36,743 nt of DNA, taken from a virus. The notes under the pieces are model-generated. The model made no database searches and had not been told where the DNA came from. It worked only from the letters and a program-made list of their open reading frames with translations. Position 1 is the first letter of the stretch. Every line of letters starts with the position of its first letter. Position numbers and translations under genes: made by a program. Below, one piece after another: positions 3,827 through 22,300 of this stretch. Location: IMG/VR virus record IMGVR_UViG_3300006305_000065, positions 1 through 36,743 of that record. One strand, 5' to 3'.

Positions 3827-6220
3827 ATGGGTGGTGGTGGAAAGAAAGGCGGTAAGAAGAAGAGTAAGAAAAAGTTAACAGGCAAAGCTAAGTTAGCTAG
3901 CTTAGGTCGAGCTCCCAAGTCTGCCCTTGGAAAAACTAAAGCTCAAAAACAATTTGCAGCTAACAAAGCTAAGTATGGTGGTACAGCATCAGCTGCCAAA
4001 GCTAACAAAGCTGCTGGTAAACAAGCAGCAGCCGCACGTCATACTAAGTACAAGCAAACCGGGGTGCAAACTTTCGGTGGTAAGAAGACTTCCTTTACTG
4101 CAAAAGAAAAGGCAAACATAACCAAAGCAGGCTACAGTGTAGATGGATACTCACAGGCTCCGGCCAAGAGTGATACTCAGCTACAGGTAGACAGAGATAA
4201 CAAGCTGTATGGTAACACAGCACCAGTTGGTGGTTTTAACATCAGTGAAGAAGGACAGAAAGTAGCAGCCGCACAACTATCAGAAAAGAAATTAGCTAAC
4301 AAAGAGTTAGCAAGACTAGAAAAAGTAGATCCCGGCACAGCTAACTATATAAAAAGTTTAGCTCCTAACATACAAACCGATGCGTTGATAGGTGGACGAA
4401 CACAGGCTCCCGGTGTAGAACTAGGCATAGGTCTTGGCACTATCATTGGAGGTAAGATGCTTCTAGGTGGAGGTCTCTTAGGAAGCTTAAAAGGGCTCGC
4501 TTTTGGAGGAGCTAAAAAAGGTCTAGGTTATAAGGGTACACAGGTAGGCTTTACTGGCATGGGCAAGAAAGGCTTTGATGCTATTTCAGCTGGAGCTAAG
4601 TACAAACCGGGCACGTTTAAATTATTTGGTAAAACATTTAACAAGCCACAGATATTAGGTGGAGGTAAAGCTTACTCATCACCTAAAGCAGCTAAAGGTC
4701 CATTCTATAATCCCGGTGCTGGTAATTACTCAGGCACACAAGGATCACTTGGTGGCACACAGACACCCGGTGGTGTAATATCATCTATTGTATCTGGTAA
4801 AGCACCACGAATAGGTTTTCTAGAAAAGCAAGCAGCAGTAAGCCCCGGCATGTTTGACAAGGGTGTAACTCTTGCTAACAAAATATCACAAGGAGCATAT
4901 GGTAAGAGCACACTAGCTAATGTTTTCCGATCCCAGATGAATACAGGTATAGCACCCGGCGGTGGTATAGGTAGTAATATAACTGGTGCTAATTTAGGTA
5001 AACTCGGTATAGTATCAGCTGGTGGATTGAACCTCGGTGGTGGTAGTGGCAGTGGTGTAGATAGTGGAGAACCTACAGGTAGTGGTACAGGTAGAACTGT
5101 TGTAACTACTGACAAAGATACAAACATTAGTTATGATGCTAAAGGAATAGCTAAGGATGCGTTTTTAGGACTAGCTGACGCAGCTACCTTTAACAAGTTT
5201 GACTTTGACAATCTAGGCAGACCCGGTGACAATAAAACATTTACACAAAAGTTTGAGACATTTAAAAAAAGTCCATTACAACAGGCTATTATATCTAAAC
5301 AACTAGGCATAGATGCCAAGCGTCTTATAAACGATAGTGAGTCAGCAGCTAAATCATTATTCAGTAACTACATAGGAGACATTGATGCTTCTACTAAGAA
5401 GGGAGTACGTCAACCTATTGCTAAGTTCTTGAAGGATGTAGGAAGCGATGATGCAACAGCAATGGCTGGTAGAGCTATAGATGCTTTTGGTTATGATGAT
5501 GAAAACTTTAGCAATGAGCCTAACAAGCTTACAAAAATGCTTCAATTTACTGGTCTACCACAGTTTAGTGAGGAGAACGTACAAGATATACGACACACTC
5601 TTAACAAAGATGTAACAAAAGAGACTGGCATACAAGGTAAGTCAATACTAAAGAACGTACCTTACACCCAAGCTCTTGGATTTGCTAACAGAATAGTCTC
5701 TGGTAAGTTATCAGATTCTACAGGAGAAGCGATGAATCAGTTAGGTATGCAGAACGTAGGTGGTATTGATGATGCAATCAATCTTGGTATGCAGATCAAC
5801 ACTAACAAAAACTTAGAAGGTACGATAGCTAACAAACGATTCGGAGAACTAGATAATTTAATTCAGAAATATGGTCCGGGTAAAGGACAGATACCTACAC
5901 TCCCATCTATCATCAAAGGTATTGGTGGTTCACTAGGAGCCACAGGTGGAGGAACTACTCCATTACAGATACAAGGTGGTAGTAATATGACTGCTACTTT
6001 ACCAACAACTAACCAACAAAAACTCGCATCAGTATTACCTGTGTCTACTACACAGACAGGTACAGATTCTAGTAACTTGTCAAAGATTATGCAAAACGCA
6101 TACACTAATCAGATGAGTTTGTATGGTATGAACCCTAATTACTTTGCTCAGTTTATGATGCAGAAATCAAAACGCCCATTGAAAAAATTTAAACAAGTAT
6201 TTAATAGAAATTATTTTTAA
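3827..6220 (+). CDS. large Lys/Gly/Ala-rich protein in the T7 gp7.3 position
   Basis: This is a 797-aa protein without a recognised family. The N-terminus is extremely basic (MGGGGKKGGKKKSKKKLTGK), followed by Ala/Lys-rich sequence to about residue 80. A hydrophobic glycine-rich stretch at about residues 197-230 (GLGTIIGGKMLLGGGLLG) could contact membrane or core. Glycine/serine linkers follow (about 400-425), and the C-terminus is basic (KRPLKKFKQVFNRNYF). T7 has gp7.3, a small virion protein of about 100 aa with a similar 'MGKKVKKAVKK' start, in the same place before the portal, so a virion or tail-assembly role is a reasonable inference. Translation should be strong: AAGGAG lies at 3815-3820. 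The stop is three bases before the portal start. Confidence 0.75.
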   Translation: MGGGGKKGGKKKSKKKLTGKAKLASLGRAPKSALGKTKAQKQFAANKAKYGGTASAAKANKAAGKQAAAARHTKYKQTGVQTFGGKKTSFTAKEKANITKAGYSVDGYSQAPAKSDTQLQVDRDNKLYGNTAPVGGFNISEEGQKVAAAQLSEKKLANKELARLEKVDPGTANYIKSLAPNIQTDALIGGRTQAPGVELGIGLGTIIGGKMLLGGGLLGSLKGLAFGGAKKGLGYKGTQVGFTGMGKKGFDAISAGAKYKPGTFKLFGKTFNKPQILGGGKAYSSPKAAKGPFYNPGAGNYSGTQGSLGGTQTPGGVISSIVSGKAPRIGFLEKQAAVSPGMFDKGVTLANKISQGAYGKSTLANVFRSQMNTGIAPGGGIGSNITGANLGKLGIVSAGGLNLGGGSGSGVDSGEPTGSGTGRTVVTTDKDTNISYDAKGIAKDAFLGLADAATFNKFDFDNLGRPGDNKTFTQKFETFKKSPLQQAIISKQLGIDAKRLINDSESAAKSLFSNYIGDIDASTKKGVRQPIAKFLKDVGSDDATAMAGRAIDAFGYDDENFSNEPNKLTKMLQFTGLPQFSEENVQDIRHTLNKDVTKETGIQGKSILKNVPYTQALGFANRIVSGKLSDSTGEAMNQLGMQNVGGIDDAINLGMQINTNKNLEGTIANKRFGELDNLIQKYGPGKGQIPTLPSIIKGIGGSLGATGGGTTPLQIQGGSNMTATLPTTNQQKLASVLPVSTTQTGTDSSNLSKIMQNAYTNQMSLYGMNPNYFAQFMMQKSKRPLKKFKQVFNRNYF

Positions 6221-9799: not shown

Positions 9800-9984
9800 T
9801 TACTACCGATATTGATGGTAGAGAAAACATCTACCCAAACGAACCCCCTATACAATTATTACCACAAAGAAAACTAATGTCACCAGAAGCAGAAAGATTT
9901 AATGGCTGGGCAGCAATGCTCGGATTCGTAGCAGCTGTAGGAGCCTACGCAACAACAGGACAAATCATACCCGGAGTATTCTAA
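9796..9984 (+). CDS. hli: high-light inducible protein (HLIP)
   Basis: This 62-aa protein has one membrane helix (about residues 37-55) with the chlorophyll-binding signature of the light-harvesting superfamily: [12 protein letters not shown], in which Glu33 and Asn36 are the expected pigment ligands. HLIPs bind chlorophyll and carotenoid in the thylakoid and dissipate excess excitation, protecting photosystem II. The C-terminal TGQIIPGVF is typical. The gene directly precedes psbA with a one-base TAATG overlap, so the two are probably co-translated to keep photosynthesis running during infection. It is of host origin in the evolutionary sense, as known for cyanophage hli genes. Confidence 0.97.
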
Positions 9985-11066
9985 TGGCAGCTATCTCTGT
10001 AACAAGAGGTACTAGCACTAGCAACTGGGAAAGATTTTGCCAATGGGTTACAAGTACAGAGAACCGCCTATATGTAGGTTGGTTTGGTGTGCTAATGATC
10101 CCTTGCTTATTAGCAGCAACAACTTGTTTTATACTCGCCTTCATCGCAGCACCGCCTGTAGACATAGACGGCATACGTGAGCCTGTTTCTGGCTCGTTAA
10201 TATACGGAAACAATATTATATCAGGAGCAGTCGTCCCCTCCTCAAACGCAATCGGACTACATTTTTATCCAATTTGGGAAGCCGGAACCATGGACGAATG
10301 GTTATATAATGGCGGACCATACCAACTCGTTGTCTTCCACTTCTTAATCGGAGTAGCAGCTTATGCTGGTAGACAGTGGGAACTATCATACAGACTTGGC
10401 ATGAGACCTTGGATCTTTGTTGCATATACTGCACCACTATCCGCAGCTCTTGCAGTCTTTCTTGTCTACCCATTCGGTCAGGGTTCATTCTCTGACGGCA
10501 TGCCCCTAGGTATCAGTGGAACATTTAACTTCATGTTTGTCTTCCAAGCGGAGCACAACATCCTTATGCACCCCTTTCATATGCTCGGAGTTGCGGGCGT
10601 GTTTGGTGGTTCTTTGTTTAGTGCTATGCACGGAAGCCTTGTTACTTCCTCAATCCTTCGGGAGACCACGGAAGAAGTTTCACAGAACTATGGTTACAAG
10701 TTTGGTCAAGACGAGGAAACATATAACATTGTAGCTGCACATGGCTACTTTGGTAGACTTATATTTCAATATGCCTCTTTTAATAATTCTCGTAGCTTAC
10801 ATTTCTTTTTGGCTACTTGGCCCGTGGTTGGCATATGGCTCACCTCGATGGGAATTTGCACCATGGCTTTCAACCTTAACGGTTTTAACTTTAATCAGTC
10901 CGTCGTTGACGTTAACGGCAAGATCATACCTACTTGGGCTGACGTATTAAACAGAGCTAACTTAGGCTTTGAAGTAATGCACGAGCGTAATGCTCACAAC
11001 TTCCCACTTGACTTAGCATCAGCTGAGTCTACAAACGTAGCTTTAACTGCACCACAAATAGCATAA
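9984..11066 (+). CDS. psbA: photosystem II D1 protein
   Basis: This full-length 360-aa D1 reaction-centre protein has the five-helix fold and cofactor residues. With numbering one higher than plants and Thermosynechococcus, it has Yz Tyr162 (FLVYPF), the Mn ligand Asp171 (SFSDGMPLG), and the quinone-site [18 protein letters not shown] block. Residue 131 (canonical 130, GRQWEL) is glutamine, the D1:1-type state. The C-terminus [22 protein letters not shown] keeps the CtpA processing site after Ala344 (canonical). It replaces photodamaged D1 in the infected cell. There is no intron or frameshift. The TAA is followed three bases later by the start of the riboswitch region, so psbA has almost no 3' UTR of its own. 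Confidence 0.98.
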
Positions 11067-11141
11067 CCCCGACGTCCGTTCATCGCTTATGCGACGCATG
11101 TCATCTAGTCATGGAACGGGGGCTAGGTATCGGAGGAAGCT
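11067..11141 (+). promoter_or_regulatory. glutamine-II (downstream-peptide) riboswitch
   Basis: This leader has the parts of the downstream-peptide/glutamine-II RNA known from cyanobacteria and cyanophages. P1 pairs CCGTTC (11076-11081) with GAACGG (11114-11119). P2 is TCGC-TTAT-GCGA (11083-11094), followed by the conserved GACGCATGTCAT-type core. A pseudoknot pairs TCTAGTC (11104-11110) with GGCTAGG (11121-11127), seven pairs including two or more G-U. The pseudoknot ends four bases before the Shine-Dalgarno GGAGG (11132-11136), so bound glutamine should hide it and lower translation of the 17-aa peptide. The class was assigned by recalling its consensus, not by a covariance search. Confidence 0.87.
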
Positions 11142-11195
11142 ATGACAGTAACTTACGTTTACCGTGGTGTTACATATACTAAACTTGTTAAGTAA
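11142..11195 (+). CDS. 17-aa riboswitch-controlled peptide (DUF4278-like)
   Basis: The ORF encodes MTVTYVYRGVTYTKLVK. It has a strong GGAGG six bases upstream, inside the reach of the glutamine-II pseudoknot. The Y-RGV-Y-K core is the pattern of the DUF4278 peptides that characteristically follow this riboswitch class, and short ORFs gave the 'downstream-peptide' motif its name. The function is unknown; a nitrogen-metabolism effector has been suggested for such peptides only by association with glutamine sensing. The stop forms TAATG with the 43-aa ORF. Confidence 0.8.
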   Translation: MTVTYVYRGVTYTKLVK

Positions 11196-11326
11196 TGGCA
11201 CATCAAAGCTCGGTTATGAGAGCAGCAATCACAAGGTTTGAACCTGAGACATACCCTGCTCCAGAACCAGAAAATAAAACTGAAGAAAAGAAAGAAGATG
11301 CTCAACTAGAGACTCCTTCTTACTAA
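11195..11326 (+). CDS. 43-aa hypothetical protein downstream of the riboswitch peptide
   Basis: The product begins MAHQSSVMRAAITRFEPETY and has a Pro/Glu/Lys-rich, disordered C-terminal half ending QLETPSY. It starts in the TAATG that ends the 17-aa peptide and has no Shine-Dalgarno of its own, so its translation probably depends on that peptide and hence on the riboswitch. No family is recognised. Real coding is supported by the coupling and by the absence of stops, but the length is short. Confidence 0.6.
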   Translation: MAHQSSVMRAAITRFEPETYPAPEPENKTEEKKEDAQLETPSY

Positions 11327-11480
11327 ACAGCCGGGGAGCACCTCAGAGTCGGACTCCCCTGCCATTGGCATTTGCCCTCCACGGAGGATACCTCATGCCG
11401 TCTAGACGGTGGGATAGACCACAAAAAAATCTCGAGAAAAATTAGTACTAAGCAATATCAATCTTTACTAATCCATATCA
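11327..11480 (+). other. structured non-coding leader before the capsid gene
   Basis: This 154-base gap is unusually GC-rich and self-complementary in its first 90 bases. GGGGAG (11333-11338) can pair with CTCCCC (11354-11359). GGCAT (11367-11371) can pair with ATGCC (11395-11399), enclosing CCTC-CACG-GAGG (11376-11387). CCGTCTAGACGG (11398-11409) is a perfect palindrome that competes with the second stem. An A-run (11422-11428) and an AT-rich stretch then lead to the capsid ATG, with no good Shine-Dalgarno. T7 has its strong phi10 promoter and an RNase III site near here, so a phage promoter plus processed leader is possible. No known RNA family is recognised. Confidence 0.5.
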
Positions 11481-12650
11481 ATGGCTCAACAGAATAGTAC
11501 TCTGACTACCGCACTTACACGTCCGGGTCAGAAGAATAGCACAGGCAACGCCCGTGAACTTTATTTAAAGCTGTTCAGTGGAGAGATGTTTAAAGGCTTC
11601 CAGCACAATGCAATCGCTAGAGACCTTGTAATGAAGAGAACACTTACAAACGGTAAGAGTCTTCAGTTCATCTACACTGGACACACAAAAGCCGAGTACC
11701 ATGTACCCGGAAACAGCATTCTTGGTAACACCGATGGTGCACCACCAGTTGCTGAGAAGACCATCACTATTGATGACCTTCTAATCTCTAGTGCTTTCGT
11801 TTATGAACTTGACGAAACACTTGCTCACTACGAATTACGTGGTGAAATTTCCAAGAAGATTGGATATGCTCTTGCACAAAAATATGATAGACTAATCTTT
11901 AGAGCTATCGCTAAAGGTGCTAGACAAGCTTCTCCAATCACTAAAACAGGCTTTGTCGAGCCCGGCGGAACACAGATCAGAGTTGGTACAAACAACCAAG
12001 CATCTGACGCATACGTTCCAGCTTCTCTAATAGCAGCCTTCTATGATGCAGCTGCTGCTCTTGACGAGAAAGGAGTAAGCTCTGAAGGACGTGTTGCTGT
12101 GTTGAACCCAAGACAGTACTACGAATTAATACAAGGTGTTGGTTCTAACGGTCTTATCAACAGAGACGAGCAAGGTGGTGCGTTACAGTCAGGTAACGGA
12201 ATCATTGAAATTGCAGGCATCAAGATCTACAAGTCAATGAACATTCCATTCTTTGGCTCATACGGTACTAAGTATGGTTCTGCATCTGCAACAAACCCCG
12301 GTGTAACAAGCCCCGGAAACGTAGGAACATTCGTTGGTGAAACAGCAGAAGACGGTAGAGCTTCTGTAACTGGTATCAACAACAACTACGGTAATGCTAC
12401 AGACTTCGCTAACAGCTGCGGACTAATCTTCCAGAAGGAAGCCGCTGGTGTTGTAGAGTCAATCGGACCACAGGTTCAGATCACATCTGGAGATGTATCC
12501 GTAGTATACCAAGGTGATGTAATCCTAGGTAGACTCGCAATGGGAGCAGACTTCTTAAACCCTGCTGCTTGCGTAGAGCTAATTGCTGGTGCTGCTACTG
12601 GATCTACAGGTAATGCTGCATTCGGTACAACATACCCAGACAACGCTTAA
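11481..12650 (+). CDS. major capsid protein, T7 gp10-like
   Basis: This 389-aa protein is the T7-family major capsid protein (HK97 fold), the shell subunit. Supporting features are its position after the scaffold, the length (T7 gp10A is 345 aa), and the pattern ARELYLKLFSGEMFKGFQHNAIARDLVMKR near the N-terminus. There follow SLQFIYTGHTKAEYHVPGN and the ISSAFVYELDETLAHYELR segment, all typical of podovirus capsid proteins. The C-terminal part (SGDVSVVYQGDVILGRLAMGADFLNPAACVEL) is the usual P-domain end. No second, frameshifted form is evident. It is followed directly by an intrinsic terminator. Confidence 0.96.
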   Translation: MAQQNSTLTTALTRPGQKNSTGNARELYLKLFSGEMFKGFQHNAIARDLVMKRTLTNGKSLQFIYTGHTKAEYHVPGNSILGNTDGAPPVAEKTITIDDLLISSAFVYELDETLAHYELRGEISKKIGYALAQKYDRLIFRAIAKGARQASPITKTGFVEPGGTQIRVGTNNQASDAYVPASLIAAFYDAAAALDEKGVSSEGRVAVLNPRQYYELIQGVGSNGLINRDEQGGALQSGNGIIEIAGIKIYKSMNIPFFGSYGTKYGSASATNPGVTSPGNVGTFVGETAEDGRASVTGINNNYGNATDFANSCGLIFQKEAAGVVESIGPQVQITSGDVSVVYQGDVILGRLAMGADFLNPAACVELIAGAATGSTGNAAFGTTYPDNA

Positions 12651-19370: not shown

Positions 19371-22300
19371 TGGAAGAAGAGAATAAAGAAGAACTGATAG
19401 CTGGAGCTCCTATGAGATTCCAAGAGAATGCTGTAAATGCTGAACCAGTATTTCCTTCACCATTTAATTCTAAGATTGGTAACAGTACTGTCGACTTGTC
19501 AGACAAGGCTAATAATGACGCCATGTTAAAAGAGTATGATAACTGGTGGGATTTTGGTCAGAAAAAAGGTTTCTTAGGAATGAATTACTTGACTAAAGAT
19601 GAGTCTGTTCTTGCTGAAAGAAATCAAATGAGAGATGAATGGTATCAAAAATATCACGGCATGTCTTACGAAGATTATAAGAAAGGAGTAGATGAGCGTA
19701 CTGATACTAATTCACTTAAGCTTATAGGTCAACGCTTAGATAATAACTTTCAAGGTTTATCTGCACCCGGTATAGGACTACTTGACTTTGGTATGGATGC
19801 AGCTGGTACATTGATACCCGGCTTTGATAAGGTAGATGAAAAGTATGACAAAGCTACAATGCTTGATAATCCTGTTCATCAAATGGTAAGACGTGTATCG
19901 TCTATTGTATTACCTACTATCTTAGGTGGTGGCTATGCCTCAAGTGCAGTTAATGCTAAATTATCTGGTGGTGCATTATTTACCAAACCTTGGTTTACAA
20001 AACTAGCTGCTGATTTAATGACACAGGTAGGTGTTGATGCTACAGTATTAGCACTTAGTGATGTTGGAGAAGATGATAGTATTACTACAGAACTCAGCAA
20101 CATGTTTCCTGAGACATTCGGACCAAAGGGTAGGGTACCTTTGCCTGACTTTTTTAGAACTGCTGACAGCGATAGCCCCGGTATAAGAAAAGTTAAGAAC
20201 ATGCTAGAGTCAGCACCATTTGCTATACTTGGTAGTGTTATTGGATCTTTTATCGACGTAAAAAATGGTAAGCAAACTATGGGCTGGTTTGATCCTAAAG
20301 ACGGTGTATCTCAACAATATAAACAAGGTGTACTTAAGTTTGGTGGTGATCCTGACATACTTATACGTATACAAGAAATAGACGAACTGCTATCACTAGG
20401 TCGTAAAAACCTAAGTAGGCAAAATGAGAACTTACTGATTAACGAAAAGTTAAACTTAGAAGCACAGTTAGGAGATCCTAGTATTGACGTATCAATGAAT
20501 CGTCAGGCTGAGATTAATGCTAGTGAAGCTGATGCAGCTATAGATAGAAAGATTGCTAACAACTTTGAGCAGCTAGAACTAGATATTAATGGTCTAGATC
20601 CTGACTTAAATGCTGACTTATTATCTGATGCAGCAAAAACTAAACAACAAGTACCTCCCGGTAACGTAGCACGTAACATAGCAGATACTACAGCTATTAA
20701 AACTGGTTCATCATCTGGAGATCCAGCACCTATAATTACAGATTCCATGAGAAAAAAAGGTCTTATGGTAGGCTCTACAAGTCGTGATGCTGTAATGGGT
20801 GTATCCGAAGCTGCTAGAATGGCTGGTAGATTCGATGCTATCGTAGATGGTGTTAGATTTAGTGCCAAAGAAATGAACGCAGCAGCGTGGGGTATTTATA
20901 TGGATATCATAGATCCCATGTCTACTGTTGACGATGTAAAAGCATTGTTCTTAGAAAACAGAGATGTAAAGAACTTAATGCTTGGTAAGTTTAAGATAGA
21001 AGTAATTAACGAAGATCAGGCTAGAGCAGCGGCGTTTGCTATGCGTGACCTTGTTGACAGATTTTTAGGTAGAGAAGTGACAGCATCATCTGGTAGAGTT
21101 ATGGATACTCTAGGTAGAGAAGCTGCTACGATTGCAGCATCTATAACAGACATGGCTCCATTTGTAGATGATGCACATGCTATGGATATTGTGCTTGACA
21201 AGTTACTATTCTTGATGGATGAGTATGCACTTAATAAATACCTATCTGGTTGGTCACTACGTAACAAGAACTGGTTTGACCAGCTCCCACCACGTAATGC
21301 AGAAGAAGGTATACAGACACTGTTAGAAGAGTTTAAAACTGCTGAGAATAGTATTCATGCTAAGAATCTAAAGTTTACTAAAACACTTAAGGAACTACGT
21401 AAGAATAAACCAGAAGCATTACGTCCTTTGATTGACGCATACGCACATACTAATGGTGATGTAGATAGTCTCGCTAAACTATACAAATGGGCAGCAGATC
21501 AGATTACACCAGTAGGTATGTTAAAAAGTCCTGATCCTAAAAACATGAACTTGTTTGCTAAGGCTGCATGGGGTGTACGATACAACAATATGTTGTCAGG
21601 TATATCTGCATTTAGAGCTGGTGTAGGTAATGGTGTACAACTTTTACTTAGACCTATGACAGCTGTATTAGGACATGCTGTAACTGGTAACTGGGATGGT
21701 ATACGACGTACTATATATTATAATGGTGCTGTCTGGGAAACAAACAGACGTGCATTAACTGATGCGTACCAGATGATGAAGAGAACTCATAAAGATCCTA
21801 CTGCTATGATGGCACAGTTTCGTAAAGACTTTGTATTTAAGACTGACAAAGCTTGGGACATCATGGATGACATGGCTAAGTTATATGAGATTGATGGTAA
21901 CTGGGGTAGAGCATATCAATTAAAGATGGCATCTAGACTTAAGCAAATAGCTGGTATGAAAGGTTTACGTTATGGTATGACTGCTATGGTATTTCCTGAC
22001 GTATTTACAACCACACACCTAGCACATTACTTAGCTAGAGCTAAAGCTTATGATGATGTATTCTACGAATTTGGTAGTATATATGGTAAGGCAGATCTAC
22101 TAAAAGAAGCAGAGCTAAAGTATTATAATGAGTTCTTCGATGCTGATGGACTTGTTAAAGATAAGACGTTAAAAGCTATGGCTGGTGAAATACAGCTAAA
22201 CTTAGATGACGGATTAGCTAGCTACCTTACAGATGCTACAACAGCATATCCTATACTCAAAGAAGTTATGGCGTTTCCACGTACAGCTTCTAACTATATG

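Follow-up and report, generated by a model that had tools for sequence, protein, structure and literature searches.

The stretch of DNA analysed here, referred to below as the window, is a linear virus record 36,743 bases long in which the genes are arranged as in a marine T7-like cyanophage. In the leader of its gene for the major capsid protein (MCP), we identified a two-part structured RNA (11330-11423), composed of hairpin A and module B. The RNA is read on the + strand, and its 5' part occupies a slot that is filled interchangeably among relatives and stands at a fixed, tRNA-type distance from the rest. The leader is a real and strongly conserved RNA that is apparently undescribed. The original prediction of an unidentified structured RNA at this place is confirmed, and the RNA is larger than reported: the three stems and the 12-base palindrome are present in 11327-11430, no Rfam family matches, and comparison with relatives revealed a conserved structure with covariation in both modules (0 of 500 shuffles in each case). 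As to function, the spacing and slot data give about an even chance that processing akin to tRNA punctuation frees the MCP mRNA, the new 5' end of which would be locked in helix P1 of module B.

Genomic context

The MCP gene served by the leader (11481-12650, + strand, 389 aa) matches phrog_27239 (E 3e-82) and phrog_267 (major head protein, E 1.9e-80) and is followed on its 3' side by more structural genes and a terminase-like gene; the identities of these genes, and of psbA (9984-11066) upstream, come from reading of the translations. The interval between psbA and MCP contains, in order, a glutamine-II riboswitch aptamer (11074-11128, + strand; RF01704, 52.7 bits, E 3.8e-10), which is a separate known element, a 17-aa peptide, MTVTYVYRGVTYTKLVK (11142-11195, + strand), a 43-aa ORF (11195-11326, + strand) that overlaps the peptide stop by one base and ends 3 nt 5' of hairpin A, and the structured RNA region. 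The peptide and the ORF were read from the sequence. The 43-aa ORF, for which the PHROG matches are weak and all of unknown function, is acidic, overlaps the peptide stop in the sequence TAATG and is present in close relatives; other loci, L012 and L036 among them, lack it, and there hairpin A comes directly after the peptide. No Shine-Dalgarno sequence was found before the window MCP by reading of the sequence, and no terminator-like site was called in 11327-11430, an A-run standing in place of a T-run. This A-run, also noted originally, does follow the last stem in the window, but relatives have mixed A-rich sequence there.

Structure and covariation

Folded as a single sequence, 11327-11430 is not significantly more stable than shuffles (z = -0.96), nor is the longer leader (z -1.28), and because the folding is only slightly better than that of shuffles, a lone sequence cannot decide on structure. 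Relatives were compared using a covariance model, R1, built from 11 sequences, to which 94 relatives were then aligned. The conserved core, module B (11365-11423, + strand; 61 model positions), is matched by R1 with 71.8 bits and E 3.8e-15 in this contig. On the + strand, it comprises helix P1 (11367-11374/11392-11399), with 8 positions, two inner ones of which are unpaired in the window, the P2 hairpin (11376-11379/11384-11387) and the P4 hairpin GTGG-GATAGA-CCAC (11409-11412/11419-11422). Two-sided changes occur in seven of the eight P1 pairs and three of the four P2 pairs, and P2 and P4 are paired in 99.7% and 100% of the alignment cells, respectively, with P4 varying among relatives as GTGTG/CACAC, GTAGG/CCTAC and GCTG/CAGC. 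P2 is capped by a YNMG-type tetraloop (CACG in the window; UACG in 70 of the 94 aligned sequences) and is followed on its 3' side by a conserved AUAC or ACAC bulge strand (11388-11391), which gives module B an asymmetric C/AUAC bulge; the P4 loop is of the GAUAGA type.

Across the 94 relatives, 91.4% of module B cells are paired, 13 of the 17 pairs show two-sided changes, and the covariation score is 0.344. Shuffles score 0.105 (0/500), and slid partners give no more than 0.054. Fitting of the alignment to the structure favours the latter somewhat; the covariation of P2 and P4 is also visible in the raw MAFFT alignment. Hairpin A (11330-11362, + strand) consists of a 9-position stem (11330-11338/11354-11362), with one mismatch in the window, and a conserved 15-nt loop, CACCTCAGAGTCGGA (11339-11353), in which 11 of the 15 positions are invariant. 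In an ungapped alignment of 45 distinct sequences, all nine pairs of hairpin A show two-sided changes, and the covariation score reaches 0.822 versus 0.316 in shuffles (0/500), which, as for module B, ignore relatedness, the two-sided changes being spread over many sequences. Because G-U cells outnumber A-C cells by 59 to 10, we read the RNA on the + strand.

Other readings of the same bases were rejected. The GGCNNNNGCC hairpin, considered as an alternative to P1, is broken by an A-U third pair in L103, L114 and L187 and likewise by an innermost A-U in L046 and L091, P1 being kept in each case, and the GUCUA/UAGAC pairing of the minimum-energy fold is lost in CATG variants of the palindrome centre. 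A small protein gene, with ATG at 11395 after GGAGG and a 16-codon frame (MPSRRWDRPQKNLEKN), was discarded as well: relatives carry TAG, CTG or CGC-type sequence at that place, so that the ATG is a by-product of P1. Hairpin A was also considered for a host origin, which we rejected, given that its 17-mer has 11 exact matches in 84,980 genomes versus roughly 30 expected by chance, none of them in a cyanobacterium, judged by title; its occurrence in bacterial genomes is thus not beyond chance. One relative (L185:432-497) has a longer hairpin (CCCATGGCTTGTGTTACCAAGGTAGCACCGAGTGG) inserted in P2, where it replaces the tetraloop stem.

An exchangeable 5' slot

Three kinds of module occur upstream of P1, one per leader: hairpin A, seen in 83 distinct leaders, mini-tRNAs that have a T-arm, and real tRNA genes. 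The slot of the window holds hairpin A, and ARAGORN detected no canonical tRNA in the window. In relatives, the mini-tRNAs are 41-54 nt long, with a 4-6 bp acceptor and a canonical T-arm, and are not recognised by ARAGORN. Real tRNAs in the slot include an annotated tRNA-Gly in NATL1A-7, a tRNA-Gly and a tRNA-Leu called by ARAGORN in L131 and L086, and the tRNAs of L051 and L129 identified by inspection. The mini-tRNA acceptor stems covary: in a swap test on 24 sequences with 21 distinct helices, the mean length of the sequences' own helix was 4.9 bp versus at most 4.17 in 5000 permutations. This test was used instead of a free acceptor-stem search against shuffled upstream sequence, which has little power, and the multiple alignment of the mini-tRNAs, in which several acceptor stems are misaligned, was left out of counting.

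The distance between the slot and P1 is fixed. In 72 of the 83 hairpin A leaders, 13 nt separate the conserved loop from the GG of P1. In all 49 leaders with a T-loop, this loop is 15 nt (32 leaders) or 16 nt (17 leaders) away from the same GG, and each of the four real tRNAs measured has a spacing of 15 nt. A spacing of 15 nt equals a 12-nt acceptor/T strand plus the discriminator base plus UU, which is the geometry of a tRNA 3' end, so that module B starts where tRNA 3' processing would cut. The predicted 3' end of the slot tRNA abuts module B with zero gap in L082 and L086 and overlaps it by one base in L131.

An MCP protein tree, built by a quick method, implies 32 or more changes of slot type, with at least 20 forced by well-supported branches, and the changes are no fewer than with shuffled labels; thus, the slot modules look interchangeable. 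The slot can differ even between phages with MCPs more than 90% identical, as in the window, with hairpin A, and L008, with a mini-tRNA. Evidently, recombination swaps the slot cassette while module B stays, although upstream genes that hitch-hike at a recombination joint could also account for the swapping.

In many phages, the end of the riboswitch peptide ORF overlaps the mini-tRNA and supplies the 5' side of its fold. Translation of this ORF could therefore disturb the mini-tRNA, and riboswitch-controlled translation could, in turn, control slot folding. In L081 (3340-3427; P-SSP7) and similar phages, the overlap takes in the 3' end of the peptide ORF and its stop codon.

L119 (365-490) and L194 (2900-3080, - strand) contain an additional hairpin A, after which come a strong stem (CCTTGACC/GGTCAAGG) and then a structural-type ORF. 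This ORF is directly upstream of the MCP element and, in L119, encodes 173 aa with no PHROG match. The element seems to have been duplicated for another late gene in these two loci, and since the second hairpin A precedes another ORF, the slot is portable and acts for the downstream gene, not via the identity of the capsid protein.

Proposed processing and protection of the capsid message

Among the functions proposed originally, a processing signal is the reading we favour, because tRNAs, mini-tRNAs or hairpin A fill the slot interchangeably at a fixed spacing; the cut itself we infer. The leader would serve to produce a stable capsid mRNA from a long, polycistronic late transcript, with the 5' slot (hairpin A, or a mini-tRNA or tRNA in relatives) as the processing landmark. 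Host enzymes of the tRNA-maturation type (RNase Z or RNase P), or an equivalent endonuclease, may handle the slot, cleaving it at its 3' base immediately upstream of UUGG, so that the freed MCP mRNA would start 5'-UUGG, with two unpaired bases (a 2-nt 5' overhang) before P1. In P-SSP7, the predicted new 5' end would fall at about 20,680-20,682 of NC_006882.2. P1/P2 and P4 would then form a 5' end that resists decay by 5'-end-dependent enzymes (RNase E and RNase J), with a predicted gain in stability and half-life of the MCP mRNA; 3' of these structures, an open, A/U-rich stretch would let ribosomes land. This model fits the tRNA character of the slot, the spacing ruler, the interchangeability of the modules and the lack of a phage promoter at MCP in the cyanophage Syn5 (see below). 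Hairpin A, however, is not itself a tRNA fold, its proposed equivalence to the tRNA slot resting on position and swapping.

The arrangement resembles mitochondrial tRNA punctuation, in that a tRNA or tRNA-like fold lies directly before an mRNA, and processing of the tRNA end would create the mRNA 5' end. Such a fold directly 5' of the mRNA is present in relatives (tRNA-Gly, tRNA-Leu and mini-tRNAs), and the mRNA module starts at the tRNA 3' end in terms of geometry (49/49 leaders). In contrast to mitochondria, the cyanophage leader is found in a phage, at one or, rarely, two sites per genome, the slot is often a mini-tRNA or a non-tRNA hairpin followed by the structured module B, and cleavage is a prediction. 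tmRNA, viral tRNA-like structures and mascRNA-type processing signals mimic the acceptor and T-arm and are not full tRNAs. The mini-tRNAs are similar in this respect, but they are only 41-54 nt long with a 4-6 bp acceptor and lie inside a phage mRNA leader, with charging or processing hypothetical.

Of the rival explanations, we ranked a roadblock first and a translation element second, ahead of RNA dimerisation, then a promoter and, last, a ribozyme or riboswitch. Exonuclease-resistant structures in some plant and flavivirus RNAs leave stable remnants. By analogy, the slot and P1 could stack as a compact rod that remains uncut and acts as a roadblock or insulator, stopping 5'-to-3' decay (RNase J) that arrives from upstream, so that the capsid mRNA is the stable remnant. 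The fixed spacing between slot and P1, which could serve coaxial stacking rather than cutting, the interchangeable slot folds and the very stable P1/P2 are compatible with such a role, but no pseudoknot or ring fold was seen, and true tRNA genes suit a cutting site better; we regard the roadblock as a minor possibility. Alternatively, module B and the A/U-rich stretch might recruit ribosomes, or act through a bound protein, of phage or host origin, that sets the level of capsid translation, as might be suggested by the absence of a Shine-Dalgarno sequence before the window MCP and by the conserved YNMG loop, AUAC bulge and GAUAGA loop, which resemble recognition sites. This role appears unlikely given that it leaves the tRNAs and mini-tRNAs in the 5' slot, at a fixed ruler, unexplained.

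Of all the functions considered, a new self-cleaving ribozyme or a second riboswitch, the latter also suggested originally as a second regulatory RNA, is the least probable, close to negligible. The 11 invariant positions of the hairpin A loop and the conserved bulge speak for such a role, but no known family matches, no Rfam ribozyme was detected in the region, and the replacement of the conserved loop by tRNAs shows that it is dispensable.

The promoter question

In T7, the phi10 promoter precedes the capsid gene, and gene 10 has a structured leader and an A/T-rich stretch before the major capsid gene, with RNase III sites processing the late mRNA. The cyanophage leader, likewise with structure and an A/T-rich stretch before the major capsid gene of a T7-like phage, could by its position be a promoter for a phage RNA polymerase with a structured transcript start, as proposed originally. 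The Syn5 RNA polymerase promoter has been defined experimentally as a 15-bp sequence (PMC3950665). A scan of the Syn5 genome (L204) for exact copies identified only two, one within the RNA polymerase gene at 4929 and one beyond the terminase gene at 44797; the structural genes have no local copy, and none is present at the Syn5 MCP gene. In the window, only two 3-mismatch chance matches to this promoter were found, neither at the element, although the promoter of the window phage may differ. A promoter thus did not hold up and is highly improbable: the validated Syn5 copies are elsewhere, there is one significant copy of the element per genome, and the constraint, with covariation that admits G-U pairs, is on RNA. 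Unlike the T7 leader, which starts at phi10, the cyanophage element does not coincide with a promoter copy in Syn5, and the T7 and cyanophage leaders are connected by no Rfam family.

Palindromes

P3, a perfect 12-base palindrome, CCGTCTAGACGG (11398-11409, + strand), has two bases in common with P1 (C11398-C11399) and one with P4, and its centre changes symmetrically in relatives (CTAG, CATG, ATAT and TCGA). Originally, P3 was described as competing with one of the stems, and mutually exclusive pairings were suggested. The shared bases make P1 and P3 exclusive on paper, but P1 dominates the folding of the window, with a closing-pair probability of 0.97 versus 0.01 for P3, and P1 pairing is kept in the freshwater phages L216 and L217 while P3 pairs are broken. 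In S-CBP-type phages, P3 has an odd length or is broken. Syn5 keeps both the P1 and the P3 option with GG and CC exchanged, a single, suggestive case. A bistable RNA switch, with two folds of similar stability that are both conserved, is therefore not what we found, since P3 loses to P1 in folding.

A second loop-less palindrome, P6, TTAGTACTAA (11442-11451, + strand), is located in the A/T-rich stretch before MCP. Of 160 leaders, 134 have a perfect loop-less palindrome of at least 8 nt between module B and MCP, usually 26-39 nt before the MCP start and in 41 different sequences overall; those of at least 10 nt number 75 versus 10 expected (96 leaders). Among cases with one mismatch, 21 of 23 are U-G on the + strand and none is A-C (related leaders counted separately), which indicates that the constraint on P6 acts on RNA. 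A third palindrome, between P4 and P6, is weak (40/160 leaders versus 23 in shuffles) and is not claimed. A phage MarR regulator was considered as the reader of the palindromes and rejected, because no palindromic phage site is reported for it (PMC9692554) and the G-U bias argues for RNA, not DNA. In MCP leaders such as those of L055, L057, L205 and L220, there is a possible extra hairpin just 5' of the start codon (e.g., AGAGAGT...ACTCTCT), the 5' arm of which is shared with the 3' arm of the P6-type palindrome.

The sequence pattern of the P6-type palindromes suggests RNA-RNA pairing between transcripts: a self-complementary loop is unnecessary for a lone hairpin, whereas pairing of two transcripts would need it, and the same applies to P3. 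The processing model does not explain these loop-less palindromes. If P3 and P6 paired with a second copy of the transcript, capsid mRNAs would dimerise, in line with the frequency of perfect palindromes, the U-G bias of the mismatches, and centre bases that cannot pair in cis. We nevertheless consider dimerisation quite unlikely as the principal function, given the defective P3 of the S-CBP-type phages; we also know of no precedent in phages. A combination of the two ideas, in which exchangeable tRNA, mimic or hairpin cassettes would set the 5' end of the capsid message and be coupled to palindromes that pair two capsid mRNAs, is doubtful, yet worth naming.

Distribution and relation to known RNAs

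A blastn search detected the stretch in 74 of the 80 IMG/VR loci that were fetched by MCP, as well as in many records of cyanopodophages, and in most isolates it lies under no annotated gene. Of 197 IMG/VR matches to the combined P3 and P4 pattern, 187 have an MCP homologue 53-105 nt downstream; by inspection, the ten exceptions are three contig ends and seven chance look-alikes. When R1 was run on whole records, 12 of 17 cyanopodophage records yielded one significant match each, always in the MCP leader (E 1.4e-14 to 1.2e-4). S-TIP28, SS120-1 and Syn5 gave weaker matches at MCP (E 0.002-0.03); S-CBP2 and S-CBP42 gave no match. Read from the sequence, Syn5 has the same architecture at MCP, and the deeper Syn5/P60-type leaders have only part of module B in common. 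P-SCSP1c, a cyanophage lacking DNA polymerase, gave a partial match (E 0.016), and one roseophage and one pelagiphage gave none. By eye, a GCC-[hairpin, YNMG-like loop]-GAYAAC core is recognisable at the same place in the MCP leaders of P-SCSP1c, pelagiphage and roseophage (L206, L209, L219 and L221), and a GCC-[YNMG hairpin]-GAYAAC core also in the Syn5/P60-type leaders; it is possibly a deeper version of P2, a likeness seen by eye only.

In Rfam 15, no family matches the element, and only RF01704, upstream, reaches the gathering threshold; at E<=10, the region gave, besides RF01704, one chance microRNA match on the other strand. The glutamine-II riboswitch (RF01704), which in the window is about 200 nt upstream of the element, and the manA, wcaG and PhotoRC-II RNAs are, like this element, cyanophage structured RNAs, but they differ in structure and position, and none matches. 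Open-access full text on cyanophage structured or non-coding RNAs, tRNA-like leaders and P-SSP7 transcripts contains no description of the element; subscription journals are mostly outside this coverage, and a prior report is possible. The accessible part of a survey of 104 motifs (PMC2864571, Weinberg et al. 2010) mentions cyanophage motifs and no capsid gene. By its putative mechanism, the leader is best placed with mRNA processing or stabilising leaders and tRNA punctuation, as a member of no tested family.

Implications

These ocean viruses are abundant, and their main product is the capsid protein. With two exact promoter copies genome-wide in Syn5, strong capsid expression needs explaining, and a covarying leader across the T7-like cyanophages examined offers a testable answer, namely, RNA processing combined with 5'-end protection. 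The freely swapped slot, filled by a tRNA, a mini-tRNA or a hairpin, suggests, from sequence comparison, that the element marks the place where the capsid message is cut out and protected. The same slot provides a natural experiment on what tRNA-maturation enzymes accept as a substrate, and, as a new marker, the element can be used to find and classify these viruses in metagenomes.
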